Shown here: positions 3,034-39,861 of the stretch, piece after piece
Layout: each line of letters begins with the position of its first letter
Position numbering within the stretch: the stretch's first letter is position 1
DNA from: Alcaligenaceae bacterium
GTDB taxonomy: Bacteria; Pseudomonadota; Gammaproteobacteria; Burkholderiales; Burkholderiaceae_B
Assembly: GCA_012727555.1 (NCBI GenBank)
Contig: JAAYGT010000027.1
Span: forward strand, 1 to 64,000
Reading direction: 5' to 3'
DNA length: 64,000 nucleotides
Notes under the pieces: model-generated
Database searches by the model: none
Seen by the model: the letters and a program-made list of their open reading frames with translations, nothing else
What the model was told of the DNA's origin: nothing
Made by a program: the position numbers and the translations under genes

Positions 3034-3912
3034 TCAGTACACGCCAGGTTCACCTTCCGGCCTGCGTTTGAAGCGTCGATGAACCCAGTAATACTGATCG
3101 GGTTGTTCGCGTATGCGTGCTTCAAGAAACTGGTTCATGGTAACCGCATCCAGCGAGACATCACCGCTGGGGTAATTTTCCAGGGGGTCGAAAATACGCA
3201 AACGATAACCGGCATAGCCAGGAAGAACATCGGCAACGAACGGTACGACGCGTGCGCGGCCCAATTGCGCGAGCCTGGAAACCGAGGTCAAGGTACAGGC
3301 TTGGGTGCCAAAGAAAGGCACAAAAACCGAATCACGCAAGCCGAAGTCCATGTCGGATGCGAGCATGATGGGTTTGCCCGACTTGAGCACCCGCAATATA
3401 TCGCGTGCGCTGCCGTTGCGTGGAATCATTTCGGTGCCGAAGCGCTCCCGTTGTGTGCGCGCAATCGTGTCGGTCACTGTGTCGGACATCGGGGTGTAAA
3501 TGGAAGCGACCGGGTGATGGGCCGAATAGAACATGCACGCTGCCTCGATGGCCGCAAAATGAAAACCCAGAAAAATGGTGGGTTGCTCGTAGGTATCGGA
3601 AAGTTCGATGGCTGATTCAACCTGCATCAGTTCCCTGATATCATCCGCAGAGCCAAACCATTGAATGCCCCGTTCCAGATAGCTTCTTATCACGTGCCTG
3701 AACGTTGATTGCGCCAGTTTCAGACGTTCTGCCTCGTCAAGCTCGGGAAAACAGAGCCCGAGGTTGGTCATCACAATGCGCTTGCGCCGGCTGGGTATGG
3801 AAAACAGCAGGTTGCCCAGTTGTTCACCGCTTCGGGCTACAAGGCCGTAGGGTAGTGCGGCCAGCGAACGCAAGGCGCCCGTGATCAGTGCATGTTTGAA
3901 TGCAGGGTTCAT
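3034..3912 (-). CDS. lpxL: Lipid A biosynthesis lauroyl-type acyltransferase (LpxL/HtrB family)
   Basis: The product is a 292-residue inner-membrane acyltransferase that adds a secondary acyl chain to the lipid A precursor. The N-terminus (MNPAFKHALITGALRSLAALPYGLVARSGEQLG) gives one membrane helix. The HxxxxE acyltransferase motif appears as HFAAIEA, and YIPM-like (IYTPMSD) and RNGSARDILRVLKSGKPIMLASDMDFG segments follow. The usual HFGNWE wording is altered but His and Glu are kept. The C-terminus carries the common QYYWVHRRFKRRPEGE. The start at 3912 is preferred over upstream codons by family length. It could equally be an LpxM-type paralogue. Confidence 0.85.
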   Translation of the reverse strand: MNPAFKHALITGALRSLAALPYGLVARSGEQLGNLLFSIPSRRKRIVMTNLGLCFPELDEAERLKLAQSTFRHVIRSYLERGIQWFGSADDIRELMQVESAIELSDTYEQPTIFLGFHFAAIEAACMFYSAHHPVASIYTPMSDTVTDTIARTQRERFGTEMIPRNGSARDILRVLKSGKPIMLASDMDFGLRDSVFVPFFGTQACTLTSVSRLAQLGRARVVPFVADVLPGYAGYRLRIFDPLENYPSGDVSLDAVTMNQFLEARIREQPDQYYWVHRRFKRRPEGEPGVY

Positions 3913-4141
3913 GTGTGTTGATCTACCACGCAGGGAAACAGCAATGTGCGCCCCTTGATTTTGATGTGCGCATGCTAGCCTGCGTTGTTCTGGTGAGCAA
4001 TCTTTTTCTGCATCACAGCCCGTTTTGACAAGGGTGAATCCGTTTTGATGTCGGCCGGTGTGCGCCGTTTGCGTCAATGTCTGAACTTTCCGTTAAAATG
4101 GTCTGTTCATTTGTTCAATAACTAATCTATATAGGTCCCTA

Positions 4142-5452
4142 ATGCAGCCCGAGGTTGAAATTCTGTCCGGCCTGGAGCGCCGTGTTGATCTGTCCGTATC
4201 GATCGCCGACGTAGAAAAAGAAGTCCAGGCACAACTCAAGCGTGTTGCGCGCACCGCCAAGGTTCAGGGCTTTCGTCCCGGCAAGGCACCTCTTGCCCTC
4301 ATCGAGCGCTCGCACGGGCCCGGTATCCGCTACGATGTCATCAACAGCGAGGTCGGCCGTTCCCTCGACAAGGTTCTTGAAGAAACCAAGTTGCGTGTTG
4401 CGGGTGTGCCCAGCCTCGAGCCCAAAACCGAAGGCGTACCTGAAGGCACGCTGGCCTTTTCGGCCACCTTCGAGGTGTATCCCGAAGTTCAGGTGCCCGA
4501 TCTTTCTGCACTGCAGGTCAAGCGCTCCGTTATCAATGTCACTGACGAAAACGTTCAGCACACCCTCGATATCCTGCGCAAGCAGCGTGCCACCTACACA
4601 GCCCAGGCCGATCGTGCTGCCCAGGATAACGACCGTATCACGCTCGACTTCATCGGCAAGATCGATGGCGTCGCTTTCGACGGCGGTTCTGCTGAAGGTT
4701 TCCCCTTCATCCTCGGTCAAGGTCGCATGCTGCCCGAATTCGAAGACGCTGTTCGTGGCATGAAGGCCGGTGAAACCAAAACATTCCCGCTTTCGTTCCC
4801 CGAAGACTACGCCGGCAAGGAAGTGGCGGGTAAAACAGCGGAATTCACCATCACGGTCCAGGAAGTCGCTGAAGCGGTCTTGCCTGAAGTCGATTCAGAA
4901 TTTGCCAAGTCCCTGGGTCAACCTGAGGGTGATGTCGAAAAACTGAAGGCCGATATCCGCGCCAACCTGGAACGCGAAGTCACCGCGCGTTCGCGTGGTC
5001 GCACCAAGTCCAGCGTCATGGAGGCCTTGGCCGTCGCAACAACCTTCGACGTTCCCAAGGCACTGGTCGAAAGCGATGCTCAGGATCGTGTCAAAGCCGC
5101 CCGTCAGGAACTCAAGGAACGTGGTGTTCCCAACGCCGATTCCATGCCCATTCCGGTGGAAGCCTTTGCCGCAGAATCCGAACGTCGTGTGCGTCTGGGT
5201 TTGCTGGTTTCCGAATTGGTCAAACAGGCCGAACTTCAGGTCAAACCTGAACAGGTTCGTGCCCGTATCGAAGAGTTTGCCCAGAACTACGAGCAACCCG
5301 CTCAGGTGGTAGCCTATTATCTGGCCGATCGCCAGCGCCGTGCCGAAGTCGAGGCCATCGTGCTGGAGGACAACGTTGTCGACCACGTGCTTGCCAAGGC
5401 CCAGGTCACCGACGAAGACGTATCCTTCGATGAAATCATGGGGACAGACTGA
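4142..5452 (+). CDS. tig: Trigger factor (ribosome-associated peptidyl-prolyl isomerase)
   Basis: The 436-residue chaperone binds nascent chains at the ribosome exit. The N-terminal ribosome-binding domain contains [16 protein letters not shown] (GFRxGK signature, about residues 42-57). The FKBP-type PPIase domain follows (about 150-245: [50 protein letters not shown]). A helical C-terminal arm makes up the rest. The length is standard. Its stop overlaps the clpP start by one base (TGATG), so tig and clpP are translationally coupled. It heads the tig-clpP-clpX-lon protein-quality-control cluster. Confidence 0.97.
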
Positions 5453-36858: not shown

Positions 36859-36911
36859 ATTGTAGTGTTTTCGAGGGGATAATTGCAAATGTCTTATATC
36901 TTATATAAGAC
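36859..36911 (-). promoter_or_regulatory. acnB promoter with GntR-type 21-bp operator (copy 1)
   Basis: The palindrome at 36891-36911 has arms GTCTTATAT and ATATAAGAC around a 3-nt centre. Two bases downstream on the minus strand comes TTGCAA (-35, 36883-36888), then 18 nt, then TACAAT (-10, 36859-36864). The identical palindrome occurs at 45995-46015. Its position just upstream of -35 suggests activation, or repression by overlap. Confidence 0.75.
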
Positions 36912-37061
36912 TGAAATGTGGCTTTTTGAACAGATGTACGTGAACAGGCGGAATTTGCGCATTCAGCCTTGGGTTGCACCGTTTGAAACCGGCGCCTTCA
37001 TCGGTGTGCGCGGGCTCCTTCGGCCTTGAGGCGATATGATTGACTGATTGTGCCGGTGCGT

Positions 37062-37340
37062 TCAGTTAACAACGAGATCACGGTAATCGGGGTTCCGACT
37101 GATGAAGCCAGCGGCGTAGGAACATTGTGGGCGAACTGTCCAGCGCATGTTGCGGGCTGTTTCGAGTGCATTGCGTGTGAGGTCGGCCGCAATGCCGCGC
37201 CCGCCCACAGCGCGCGGAACACCGGTATGCGTGATGGTCATGATGCCATCGAACACCTCGTAGTCAAGAACACAGAGTACACCGTCTTCGGTCAGTTCAA
37301 AGCGCTGTGCTGTTGCGTTGTGCGTAATGGGTCTGCTCAT
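37062..37340 (-). CDS. Small GNAT-family acetyltransferase (YjdJ-like)
   Basis: The 92-residue protein matches the minimal GNAT form: FELTEDGVLCVLDYEVFDGIMTITHTGVPRAVGGRGIAADLTRNALETARNMRWTVRPQCSYAAGFI. The R-G-G-R-G-I-A-A element binds acetyl-CoA, and the late Cys-Ser-Tyr motif is typical of the YjdJ group. The acceptor is unknown. It is followed 16 bp later on the same strand side by a small membrane-protein gene, transcribed in the same direction and upstream of it. Confidence 0.88.
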   Translation of the reverse strand: MSRPITHNATAQRFELTEDGVLCVLDYEVFDGIMTITHTGVPRAVGGRGIAADLTRNALETARNMRWTVRPQCSYAAGFISRNPDYRDLVVN

Positions 37341-37356
37341 GGTGTGGCTCCTGCGG

Positions 37357-37752
37357 TTAAAGTGTGCCCAGAAAGACCAGAATCCAAAGGGTTACCATGG
37401 AAATGATCCCGGCGAAAACGCCACCCCAAAGGCCGATGAGCGGCCACTTGATGCGGCTGGGCAGTTCGGTTGGGTCGATGTGAGCCAGCAGGCGATTGGC
37501 GTTTCCGATCAAGGCATACGTACTTTTGGGAAAGGCGATACGAAAGAAATAGTCGAGCGTGATGGCCAAACGTATGGAGACCGGGTAACGTTCCCAGGCA
37601 CGGTTGTCCAGGTAGGGGTGCCGGAATGCCTGATTTGTGGGGCGGATACGAAAAATGAAAAGATAGAGCCCGCACACGAGCGCTGCCAGACCGCACGCAA
37701 CCAGCAGCGTGAAGGTGAACGGCATGGCGTATAAAACAAAGGTTTGAAGCAT
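37357..37752 (-). CDS. Small membrane protein of unknown function
   Basis: The 131-residue protein has an N-terminal transmembrane helix (FVLYAMPFTFTLLVACGLAALVCGLYLFIF) and a C-terminal one (WPLIGLWGGVFAGIISMVTLWILVFL). Between them a soluble loop contains NQAFRHPYLDNRAWERYPVSIRLAITLDYFFRIAFP. I do not recognise the family; the loop resembles a conserved beta-proteobacterial hypothetical. The ATG at 37752 is chosen; an in-frame start exists at 37788. It is probably co-transcribed with the GNAT gene 16 bp downstream. Confidence 0.7.
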   Translation of the reverse strand: MLQTFVLYAMPFTFTLLVACGLAALVCGLYLFIFRIRPTNQAFRHPYLDNRAWERYPVSIRLAITLDYFFRIAFPKSTYALIGNANRLLAHIDPTELPSRIKWPLIGLWGGVFAGIISMVTLWILVFLGTL

Positions 37753-37863
37753 GATTCTGTGAAATGTAGTGAACGACCAGAACCCCAATCATAGCAATCG
37801 GGCACCGATTCGTTGCTTGGCGTCATGTATCAACAGGTTTGTTGTGTGTTATTTATGTGAGGG

Positions 37864-37923
37864 TGTTTCAGGTTTCTTTAAGCTGAATTGCTTTCCTGTG
37901 TTGCGCTGTTTCAGGTTTCTTTA
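37864..37923 (+). repeat. 17-bp direct repeat, two copies
   Basis: TGTTTCAGGTTTCTTTA occurs at 37864-37880 and again at 37907-37923, 43 bp apart. The second copy ends 3 nt before element A. The TTTCAGGT core recurs at 38196-38203 after element A and relates to the TCAGG array. Confidence 0.85.
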
Positions 37924-37926
37924 GAC

Positions 37927-38142
37927 GGTTCTGCCGGGCGGTGTGCGTACAGGCCGTGCATCACACGACCCCTTCGGGGTTTCCCGTTGCAAGGGCTGCC
38001 AATGGGGCGTGTCCAGAACTCGCGAACTCGACCCGATGGGTCGAGAACGTTCGCTCAAACAGCTGGACACTTGTCTCCCCATTGGCAGCCCTCGCAACGG
38101 CGTGTTCAAGCACGGCCTGTACGCACACCGCCCGGCAGAACC
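37927..38142 (+). repeat. Structured element copy A (216 nt, multi-helix)
   Basis: The element is closed by a perfect 32-bp stem P1 (37927-37958 with 38111-38142). Inside are hairpin P2 (ACCCC-TTC-GGGGT, 37968-37980), a 22-bp stem P3 with one mismatch (37986-38007 with 38077-38098), P4 GTGTCCAG/CTGGACAC (38009-38016 with 38063-38070), P5 GCGAA/TTCGC (38022-38026 with 38050-38054) and apical P6 CTCGACCC/GGGTCGAG (38027-38034 with 38038-38045). Unpaired AACTC, AACG, TCAAACAG, TTGTCT and GGCGTGTTCAAG remain. These are conserved in copy B. It may be a structured RNA read on the plus strand or a foldable DNA repeat. Confidence 0.8.
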
Positions 38143-38242
38143 TCACGATGCAACGACTTCGGAACAGTTAAAAATTCGGGGCCGTTTTGTATCGATTTCA
38201 GGTATTAAAGTAAGTGAAGTTGATCCGGACTCATGACCGACA

Positions 38243-38320
38243 TGAATCAGGCGCTACATGAATCAGGTACCAGATCAGATGAATCAGGTACTAAGTGAAT
38301 CAGGTACTAAGTGAATCAGG
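38243..38320 (+). repeat. Array of five TGAATCAGG repeats
   Basis: TGAATCAGG begins at 38243, 38259, 38280, 38296 and 38312, with periods of 16, 21, 16 and 16 bp. Copies 3 to 5 extend as TGAATCAGGTACTAAG. The array resembles iterons or a cluster of protein-binding sites. Spacers are only 7-12 bp, which excludes CRISPR. Confidence 0.85.
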
Positions 38321-38382
38321 TTCAACAAAAGCACAATCTCCGAACTTTTCAGCAAAGACCGCCCAATAAAATGACACATCCA

Positions 38383-38605
38383 GCGCTGCGGGAGGGGCCC
38401 GGTGGCACGGGTGCGCTCGAACACGCCGCTGGAATGTGCCTGGGCGGGGAGGCAAGGGTGCAGCTGTTTGACCGGGGCGTTTTCGACCAGCCGGGGGCTG
38501 GTCGATCCCGGGAGTTCTGCACCCGCCCCGACCGGGCACATTCCAGCGGGAAGCCCGAAGGGCCGTGAGAGGCGCGCATGTGCCACCGGGCCCCTCCCGC
38601 AGTGC
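38383..38605 (-). repeat. Structured element copy B (about 220 nt, inverted relative to A)
   Basis: Read on the minus strand it has the same helix order as copy A. P1 is a perfect 23-bp stem (38580-38602 with 38386-38408). P2 is GCCC-TTC-GGGC near 38552-38564. P3 is a perfect 15-bp stem (38535-38549 with 38426-38440). P4 is GGGTGCAG/CTGCACCC (38456-38463 with 38517-38524). P5 is CCGGG/CCCGG, and P6 is CGACCAGCC/GGCTGGTCG (38484-38492 with 38496-38504). CAGAACTC, AACG, TCAAACAGCTG, CTTG.CTCCCC and GGCGTGTTCRAGC are shared with A, while stems differ by compensating changes. It ends 63 bp from the prpF stop and could also act as its terminator. Confidence 0.8.
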
Positions 38606-38667
38606 GGGTCAAGAACCTTCGACAGACTGAAGAACCAGACATCCGTCAAAAGAACTTGACCCGATGA

Positions 38668-39861
38668 TCAGAAGCAGTCGCCCGGCACGCGTACCCAGCC
38701 TTCCATAAGTACGCGCGCACTGCGGCTCATGATGGCCTTGGTGACTGTCCATTCGCCGTGCTGCTGTTGTGCCTGTGCACCCACACGCAACGTACCGGAC
38801 GGGTGACCGAAACGCACCGCCTGACGCTCACCACCACCGGCAGCCAGATTCACCAGCGTACCCGGAATCGCGGCGGCTGTTCCAATGGCCACAGCCGCCG
38901 TACCCATCATGGCGTGGTGAAGTTTACCCATGGACAAGGCACGCACCAACAGGTCGATCGAGCCAGCGTCAACGGTTTTGCCACTGGAGGCCGTATAGCT
39001 TGTTGCAGGTGCCACGAAGGCCACTTTGGGTGTGTGCTGGCGTGTTGCCGCTTCATCGGGGTGCTGGATGAGGCCCATGCGCACGGCACCATGAGCACGA
39101 ATCGTTTCAAAGCTGGCCAGGGCGGCCGGATCGCCGTTGATCGCTTCCTGCAGTTCAGTGCCGGTGTAACCGATCTCGGCGGCATTCAGGAAAATGGTGG
39201 GTATGCCGGCGTTGATCAGGGTTGCCTTGAGCGTGCCAATACCGGGGACCTCAAGGTCGTCGACCAGGTTGCCGGTGGGGAACATGGCACCGCCGCCATC
39301 GCCGTCTTCTTCGGCGGCCGGGTCCATGAACTCCAGTTGCACTTCGGCGGCCGGGAACGTGACGCCGTCAAGTTCGAAGTCACCGGTTTCCTGTACCTGG
39401 CCATCGGTGATGGGTACGTGCGCCACAATGGTCTTGCCAATGTTGGCTTGCCAGATCCGGACTGTAGCGATGCCGTTTCGCGGAATACGCGCCGGATCAA
39501 CCAGGCCATTGGTAATACCGAACGGGCCGACAGCGGCTGAAAGGTTGCCGCAGTTGCCGCTCCAGTCGACAAAGGCCTTGTCGATGGACACCTGACCAAA
39601 CAGGTAGTCAATGTCGTGGTCGGGGCGAGTGCTTTTTGAAAGGATGACTGTCTTGCTGGTGCTGGAGGTGGCACCACCCATGCCGTCAATCTGTTTGCCG
39701 TAGGGGTCGGGGCTGCCGATGACGCGCAGCAACAGGGCATCACGGGCTGGGCCCGGTGTGCGCGCGGCTTCGGGCAGGTCGTCAAGGCGAAAGAACACGC
39801 CTTTGCTGGTGCCGCCACGCATGTAGGTGGCGGGGATCCTGATTTGAGCGGGGTAAGCCAT
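38668..39861 (-). CDS. prpF: 2-methylaconitate cis-trans isomerase PrpF
   Basis: The 397-residue PrpF/diaminopimelate-epimerase-like protein isomerises trans-2-methylaconitate made by AcnD to the cis form. It begins IPATYMRGGTSKGVFF, the family signature. DWSGNCGNLSAAVGPFGI holds the conserved cysteine region, and GKLHHAMMGTAAVAIGTAAAIPGTLVN is typical. The length is standard. It follows acnD by 27 bp in the methylcitrate operon mdh/prpB-prpC-acnD-prpF. Confidence 0.95.
   Translation of the reverse strand: MAYPAQIRIPATYMRGGTSKGVFFRLDDLPEAARTPGPARDALLLRVIGSPDPYGKQIDGMGGATSSTSKTVILSKSTRPDHDIDYLFGQVSIDKAFVDWSGNCGNLSAAVGPFGITNGLVDPARIPRNGIATVRIWQANIGKTIVAHVPITDGQVQETGDFELDGVTFPAAEVQLEFMDPAAEEDGDGGGAMFPTGNLVDDLEVPGIGTLKATLINAGIPTIFLNAAEIGYTGTELQEAINGDPAALASFETIRAHGAVRMGLIQHPDEAATRQHTPKVAFVAPATSYTASSGKTVDAGSIDLLVRALSMGKLHHAMMGTAAVAIGTAAAIPGTLVNLAAGGGERQAVRFGHPSGTLRVGAQAQQQHGEWTVTKAIMSRSARVLMEGWVRVPGDCF

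Follow-up and report, generated by a model that had tools for sequence, protein, structure and literature searches.

Tandem repeat arrays at the borders of a dispersed hairpin element in an Alcaligenaceae bacterium

Introduction

Between prpF and a gene for a small membrane protein, a genome of the Alcaligenaceae carries two long palindromes, elements A and B, together with several short repeats. Do these repeats belong to the palindromes, and if so, how did they arise? We analyzed the locus in a stretch of 64,000 nucleotides, referred to here as the window. A sequence-only reading of this DNA had described eight related, TCAGG-containing units as one array bordering element A on both sides, and had proposed that the array is either a binding platform for a protein acting on the elements or a variable-number repeat.

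The features of the locus are given below. Bit scores are from R1, a covariance model of the element core.

37834..37923, plus strand: left-border array of element A, recognized from its sequence and like the arrays 5' of other copies
37927..38142, plus strand (array-to-hairpin sense): element A, a 216-bp imperfect palindrome (159.2 bits)
38143..38379, no strand assigned: spacer between the two convergent hairpins, from the sequence and a promoter and terminator scan
38196..38320, plus strand: spacer array, with TTTCAGGTATTAAAG at 38196-38210 and five copies of TGAATCAGG at 38243-38320, the last three with a 16-bp period
38380..38608, minus strand: element B, of the same family and inverted relative to A, forming a convergent pair (141.9 bits)
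38610..38655, minus strand: left-border array of element B, GTTCTT three times at a spacing of about 20 bp, directly after the prpF stop codon

Results

The repeats form separate arrays

We found each of the noted repeats at its reported position: TGTTTCAGGTTTCTTTA at 37864 and 37907, TTTCAGGTATTAAAG at 38196-38210, and exact copies of TGAATCAGG at 38243, 38259, 38280, 38296 and 38312. However, the eight units are not a single array. The left pair borders element A on its left side, where TTTCAGGTTTCTTTA occurs twice with a period of 43 bp and the 17-mer TGTTTCAGGTTTCTTTA is identical at 37864-37880 and 37907-37923 (spacing 43). A degenerate unit, CAGGTTTGTT, at 37834 is an additional member of this border array. 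The remaining units make up an array of their own, in the A-B spacer. Three of them had been thought to extend at 16-bp periods; there are only two full copies of TGAATCAGGTACTAAG and a partial third (2.6 copies). The spacer array was said to end about 60 bp before element B, and the measured distance is 58 bp. There is also a third array that had gone unnoticed, the minus-strand GTTCTT repeats at about 38616-38655 between the foot of B and the prpF stop codon.

Elements A and B are copies of one large hairpin

Element A has perfect outer arms of 33 bp and two conserved internal loops, and is predicted to form a hairpin with a three-way junction. Its family consists of imperfect palindromes of about 216-230 bp, with helix boundaries of 204-236 bp in this genome (G000; 3.37 Mb in 211 contigs). 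DNA searches of the genome gave 47 matches to A and 44 matches to B (E <= 0.01), and a profile search of genome stretches identified at least 65 copies, full or partial, spread over 43 contigs. Of these 65 copies, 28 are within 40 bp of a contig end (for example on C10, C47, C54, C72 and C202). That is, the elements break the assembly, and 65 is a lower bound.

An alignment of 33 full copies supports a common fold. Its base is an outer helix of about 31 pairs, which leads through an internal loop to a three-way junction carrying a small hairpin. Above this are a second helix of 23 pairs, another internal loop and the apical hairpin. Compensatory changes, on both sides of a pair, were present in 69 of the 81 pairs. 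The covariation score was 0.602, compared to 0.158 for shuffled alignments and at most 0.11 when the structure was slid along the alignment; similarly, 93.5% of cells were paired, compared to 69% (shuffled) and at most 43% (slid). The conserved parts are the loops, with ATC opposite TCAA and AACTC opposite TCAAACA.

There was no Rfam match at the locus (36900-39400) up to E = 1, none at the element in copies from other genera up to E = 0.1, and no match in a search of a plasmid database. Away from the element, we observed a sub-threshold match to MIR173 in one other-genus stretch (L186) and an RsmY-like match in another (L188:195-279; E 0.0078, below the gathering score). In the genome itself, one copy (C33:36066-36287) is composite: its left half is of one sub-type, and its right half and right flank are nearly identical to C145:248-471. 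This copy arose either by recombination between copies or as an assembly chimera.

A GTTCTT-like box marks the left foot of the hairpin and is reiterated in border arrays

Just outside the left foot of the hairpin, at a distance of 2-3 nt, most copies in this genome and in G064 have a GTTCTT-like box, as do many copies from two further genera. Scored as G(T)1-3CTT, it accompanied 23/34 copies in this genome (control rate 0.14) and 17/20 in G064 (control rate 0.06), and was weaker in G018 (7/18) and G002 (6/11). In G001, none of the 25 copies had the box at the boundary. This box, and not TCAGG as had been supposed, is the part that the units share. Only 12 of 34 copies have CAGG no more than 24 nt from the left foot (control rate of 0.077), indicating that TCAGG marks sub-groups rather than the family. 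We also considered TCAGG as a terminal inverted repeat of the element and set this aside as weakly supported: CCTG was at the right end of 9 of the 34 copies, and CAGG at the left of 12.

Additional boxes accumulate on one side of the element. In this genome there were 1.91 extra boxes per 160 bp to the left of copies, compared to 0.58 in shuffled sequence, 0.17 on the opposite strand and 0.32 to the right, which bears out the earlier idea that the units accompany the elements. Of 34 left flanks, 12 had tandem repeats scoring at least 50, as did 5 of the 30 right flanks; shuffled sequence gave 0.0. The right-side arrays include those at C126, C161 and C183. Units were alike within one locus and unlike between loci. 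The period was 41 bp at C79, C148, C183 and C106, 43 bp at element A, 38 bp at C153, 32 and 34 bp elsewhere, 18-21 bp at several loci, and 14 bp at C92 and C161. The number of units also differed, with about seven at C92, three or four at C5, C202 and C21, and two to four 41-bp units at C106, C183, C148 and C79. Thus, the term variable-number repeat is apt when loci are compared. As to whether other copies are flanked by like units, in this genome there are locus-specific arrays of the box, but many copies from other genera have just one box, without an array. The array is therefore not required.

The spacer array resembles border arrays of other copies

No tandem repeat in the window scores higher than the 16-bp tandem at 38280-38321 (84). 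Exact TGAATCAGG occurs six times in the window, five of them inside 78 bp. Allowing up to two mismatches, TGAATCAGGTACTAAG was not found elsewhere in the genome; that is, the 16-bp unit is unique to the spacer. Its nearest likeness is to arrays of the GGAACAGGTATTAC type, with units of 14-16 bp, directly 5' of hairpins at C92, C5, C202 and C21. Comparisons of the spacer array to other border arrays gave scores of 28, 28, 22 and 22, and shuffled sequences gave a 99% level of 21, a 99.9% level of 26 and a maximum of 30. Because these scores are moderate, kinship with the GGAACAGGTATTAC-type border arrays is likely on sequence grounds, not proven.

The spacer array is not at a hairpin foot (its distance is 58 bp to B and 100 bp to A), and there is no hairpin directly downstream of it in the same sense. 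It is best read as a plus-sense border array whose own hairpin was lost or never attached. The distances from A and B, together with the uniqueness of the unit in the genome, could also indicate an ordinary intergenic minisatellite that is next to the elements by chance. We consider this most improbable: tandem arrays are enriched around copies on both sides and were absent from the shuffles, the whole window holds only three arrays scoring at least 50, and units similar to TGAATCAGG are found at the left border of four other copies.

The element is widespread in the family and usually lies behind genes

Within the bacterial family, R1 matched 73 of 250 genomes, representing 25 of 43 genera; in a sample of 349 genomes from the order, it matched 34. 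Outside the order, there were matches in only two genomes among 350 drawn from the class. Four complete genomes had 69, 36, 27 and 22 copies. Named carriers, confirmed with R1, include Pusillimonas minor, Pusillimonas sp. T2 and Neopusillimonas maritima. In other families of the order (L183-L186), the core is preceded by a different 5' module, AGTTACTTTCTTT...AAAGTAACCAAA, and not by the GTTCTT box.

Read in the array-to-hairpin sense, close pairs of copies converge. This holds for 13 of 13 pairs here and for 22 of 24 in the four complete genomes, with none divergent. The same pair geometry was seen in other genera and in other families of the order. We asked if an autonomous gene lies between the members of such pairs. 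In G002, one pair (2532590/2533744) does enclose a two-gene cassette (L242:3639-3833 and 3879-4154, plus strand), which is PaaA2-like/ParE-like and resembles a toxin-antitoxin system; a transposase gene was not found there, and on the strength of this pair we set the possibility aside.

A gene 3' end was on the array side in 44 of 50 isolated copies in complete genomes, with genes called by a simple codon-usage score, so the element usually lies behind a gene and in its sense. Along the chromosomes of three complete genomes, isolated copies tend to have one orientation in one arc and the other in a second arc (permutation p = 0.011 in G018, 0.029 in G001 and 0.047 in G064). This is suggestive of an array-sense orientation that follows replication, a relationship confounded with gene strand.

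The earlier reading proposed that homologous loci carrying the elements without any repeats would speak against it. In G025, from another genus, the order prpF, small protein gene, acetyltransferase gene and acnB is kept, and the first gap of about 90 bp has neither an element nor an array. Since both are missing at this site, it does not refute the association, and its intergenic sequence has diverged too far for the element ends to be placed. G064 has an element just behind prpF in a different neighborhood; no element was found behind prpF in G002 or G018. A search for the locus in named genomes by way of the neighboring small membrane protein found nothing.

Discussion

Origin of the border arrays

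Based on these results, we favor the notion that the arrays consist of repeated border units from a dispersed, non-coding hairpin element and were probably made by local tandem duplication. The element would be, or have been, a non-autonomous mobile repeat that settled behind genes and was spread by some agent, with the box as part of its recognized left end. The hairpin may be strong enough to stall replication, and extra units could then come from replication slippage or break repair at the hairpin foot. Duplication at the foot would explain units that are similar within a locus and different between loci, the pattern described above. Against it, the box is reiterated mainly in this genus and is not at the boundary in G001, and the resemblance of the spacer array to other border arrays is moderate (28 at best).

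It is possible, although unlikely, that the repeated box is instead a binding platform, as first proposed, for a protein acting on the hairpins, either a mobilizing enzyme or a nucleoid protein, with repetition raising its local concentration. In favor of this, the box is conserved across genera in a fixed place and one orientation, and its enrichment is limited to one side and one strand. However, spacing and unit sequence vary by locus, the periods of 14-43 bp have no fixed helical phase, copies in other genera mostly carry one box only, and we found no candidate protein. A comparably low probability attaches to a reading in which the complementary strand is a functional RNA and the spacer array contains control sites for two diverging transcripts. 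The complementary strand folded better in 107 of 108 copies, by a mean of 8.5-16.6 kcal/mol per genome, and had more G-U pairs (343 vs 157). The array sense had more A-C than G-U mismatches (64 vs 14 here, and 57 vs 24 in 42 copies from other genera; p = 0.0003). To judge from its sequence, the complementary strand also has tandem G-A internal loops. Against an RNA with promoters in the spacer, there was no sigma-70-like promoter in the spacer, nor was any such promoter or intrinsic-terminator-like site found in the intergenic region. In addition, the 16-bp unit occurs only at this locus, and 44 of 50 isolated copies lie behind genes whose sense is opposite to that of the complementary strand. 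Strand-biased mutation could give part of the mismatch asymmetry. Nonetheless, the more stable folding, the additional G-U pairs and the A-C excess in the array sense suggest that the complementary strand, as RNA or as single-stranded DNA, is or was the selected molecule. A bolder proposal is that A and B belong to an undescribed structured class found across the order, in which the complementary strand is the selected fold, the conserved tandem G-A internal loops are read by a dedicated factor, and the GTTCTT array is a putative docking or cutting site. We regard this as doubtful, if somewhat less so than the platform or the RNA with diverging transcripts.

The duplication we favor leaves the agent of spread to be considered, and no transposase was linked to the family. 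Searches for Y1_Tnp (PF01797) found none in G000, G001, G018 and G064, all of which are rich in copies, and one weak match in G002. The absence of Y1 transposases from this genome and three rich carriers argues against mobilization by a RAYT at present. We also rejected an association with RAYT/IS200 because the presence of Y1_Tnp does not track the element.

Comparison to known repeats

REP sequences and REPINs are palindromes of 20-40 bp with a GTAG/CGTC tag and are tied to RAYTs (PMC3733652, PMC3116915). Like REP, BIME and REPIN sequences (PMC3116915, PMC3733652), the family consists of many extragenic palindromes that mainly follow genes and lie between genes that converge or run in one direction; close copies are mutually inverted, and one end of the hairpin has a short unpaired tag. 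Unlike REPs and REPINs, the element is about 216 bp, its tag is GTTCTT-like (within 10 nt outside the hairpin, GTAG was found in 1/34 copies and CGTC in 1/34), and this genome has no Y1 tyrosine transposase (RAYT). Given the shared placement, inverted doublets and one-sided tag, and the differences in size, tag and RAYT, we place the family among the interspersed palindromic repeats.

Other repeats are similar in some respects. The BRE of Bordetella, a Beta-proteobacterial repeat element, is 75-91 bp and arranged head-to-tail in tandem (PMC3110155). It is likewise a GC-rich intergenic repeat of betaproteobacteria that differs in number between loci and genomes. In contrast, our elements are palindromes of 216-230 bp in inverted convergent pairs, a distinction drawn from the description of BRE. 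The long terminal inverted repeats associated with TIRYTs ('TIRtrons', PMC3733652) are, like the element, moderately abundant, partly self-complementary and often dimers, but neither this genome nor three of the four complete genomes searched has the tyrosine transposase gene. MITEs such as NEMIS (PMC3733652) are also small, non-coding, gene-adjacent repeats that can form strong hairpins. In our family, however, the hairpin spans the whole element and has conserved internal loops, and no defined short terminal repeats or target-site duplication were found. Intrastrand triplex repeats (PMC4666352) were rejected because they have a different motif. We found no described repeat that matches the family in the open-licence literature, and an earlier description elsewhere is possible.

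The family is a strongly covarying large hairpin, present at up to 69 copies per genome and in most of the sampled genera of the bacterial family, for which there is no Rfam match. It would exemplify palindromic repeats that spread without a Y1 transposase, and under the duplication we favor, its border arrays would be a natural record of duplication at hairpin feet.

In both G019 and Neopusillimonas maritima (L124, L141), there is a copy at a seemingly identical site, behind what by eye is a gyrB-like stop and an apparent intrinsic terminator, which suggests that this copy has been kept vertically.
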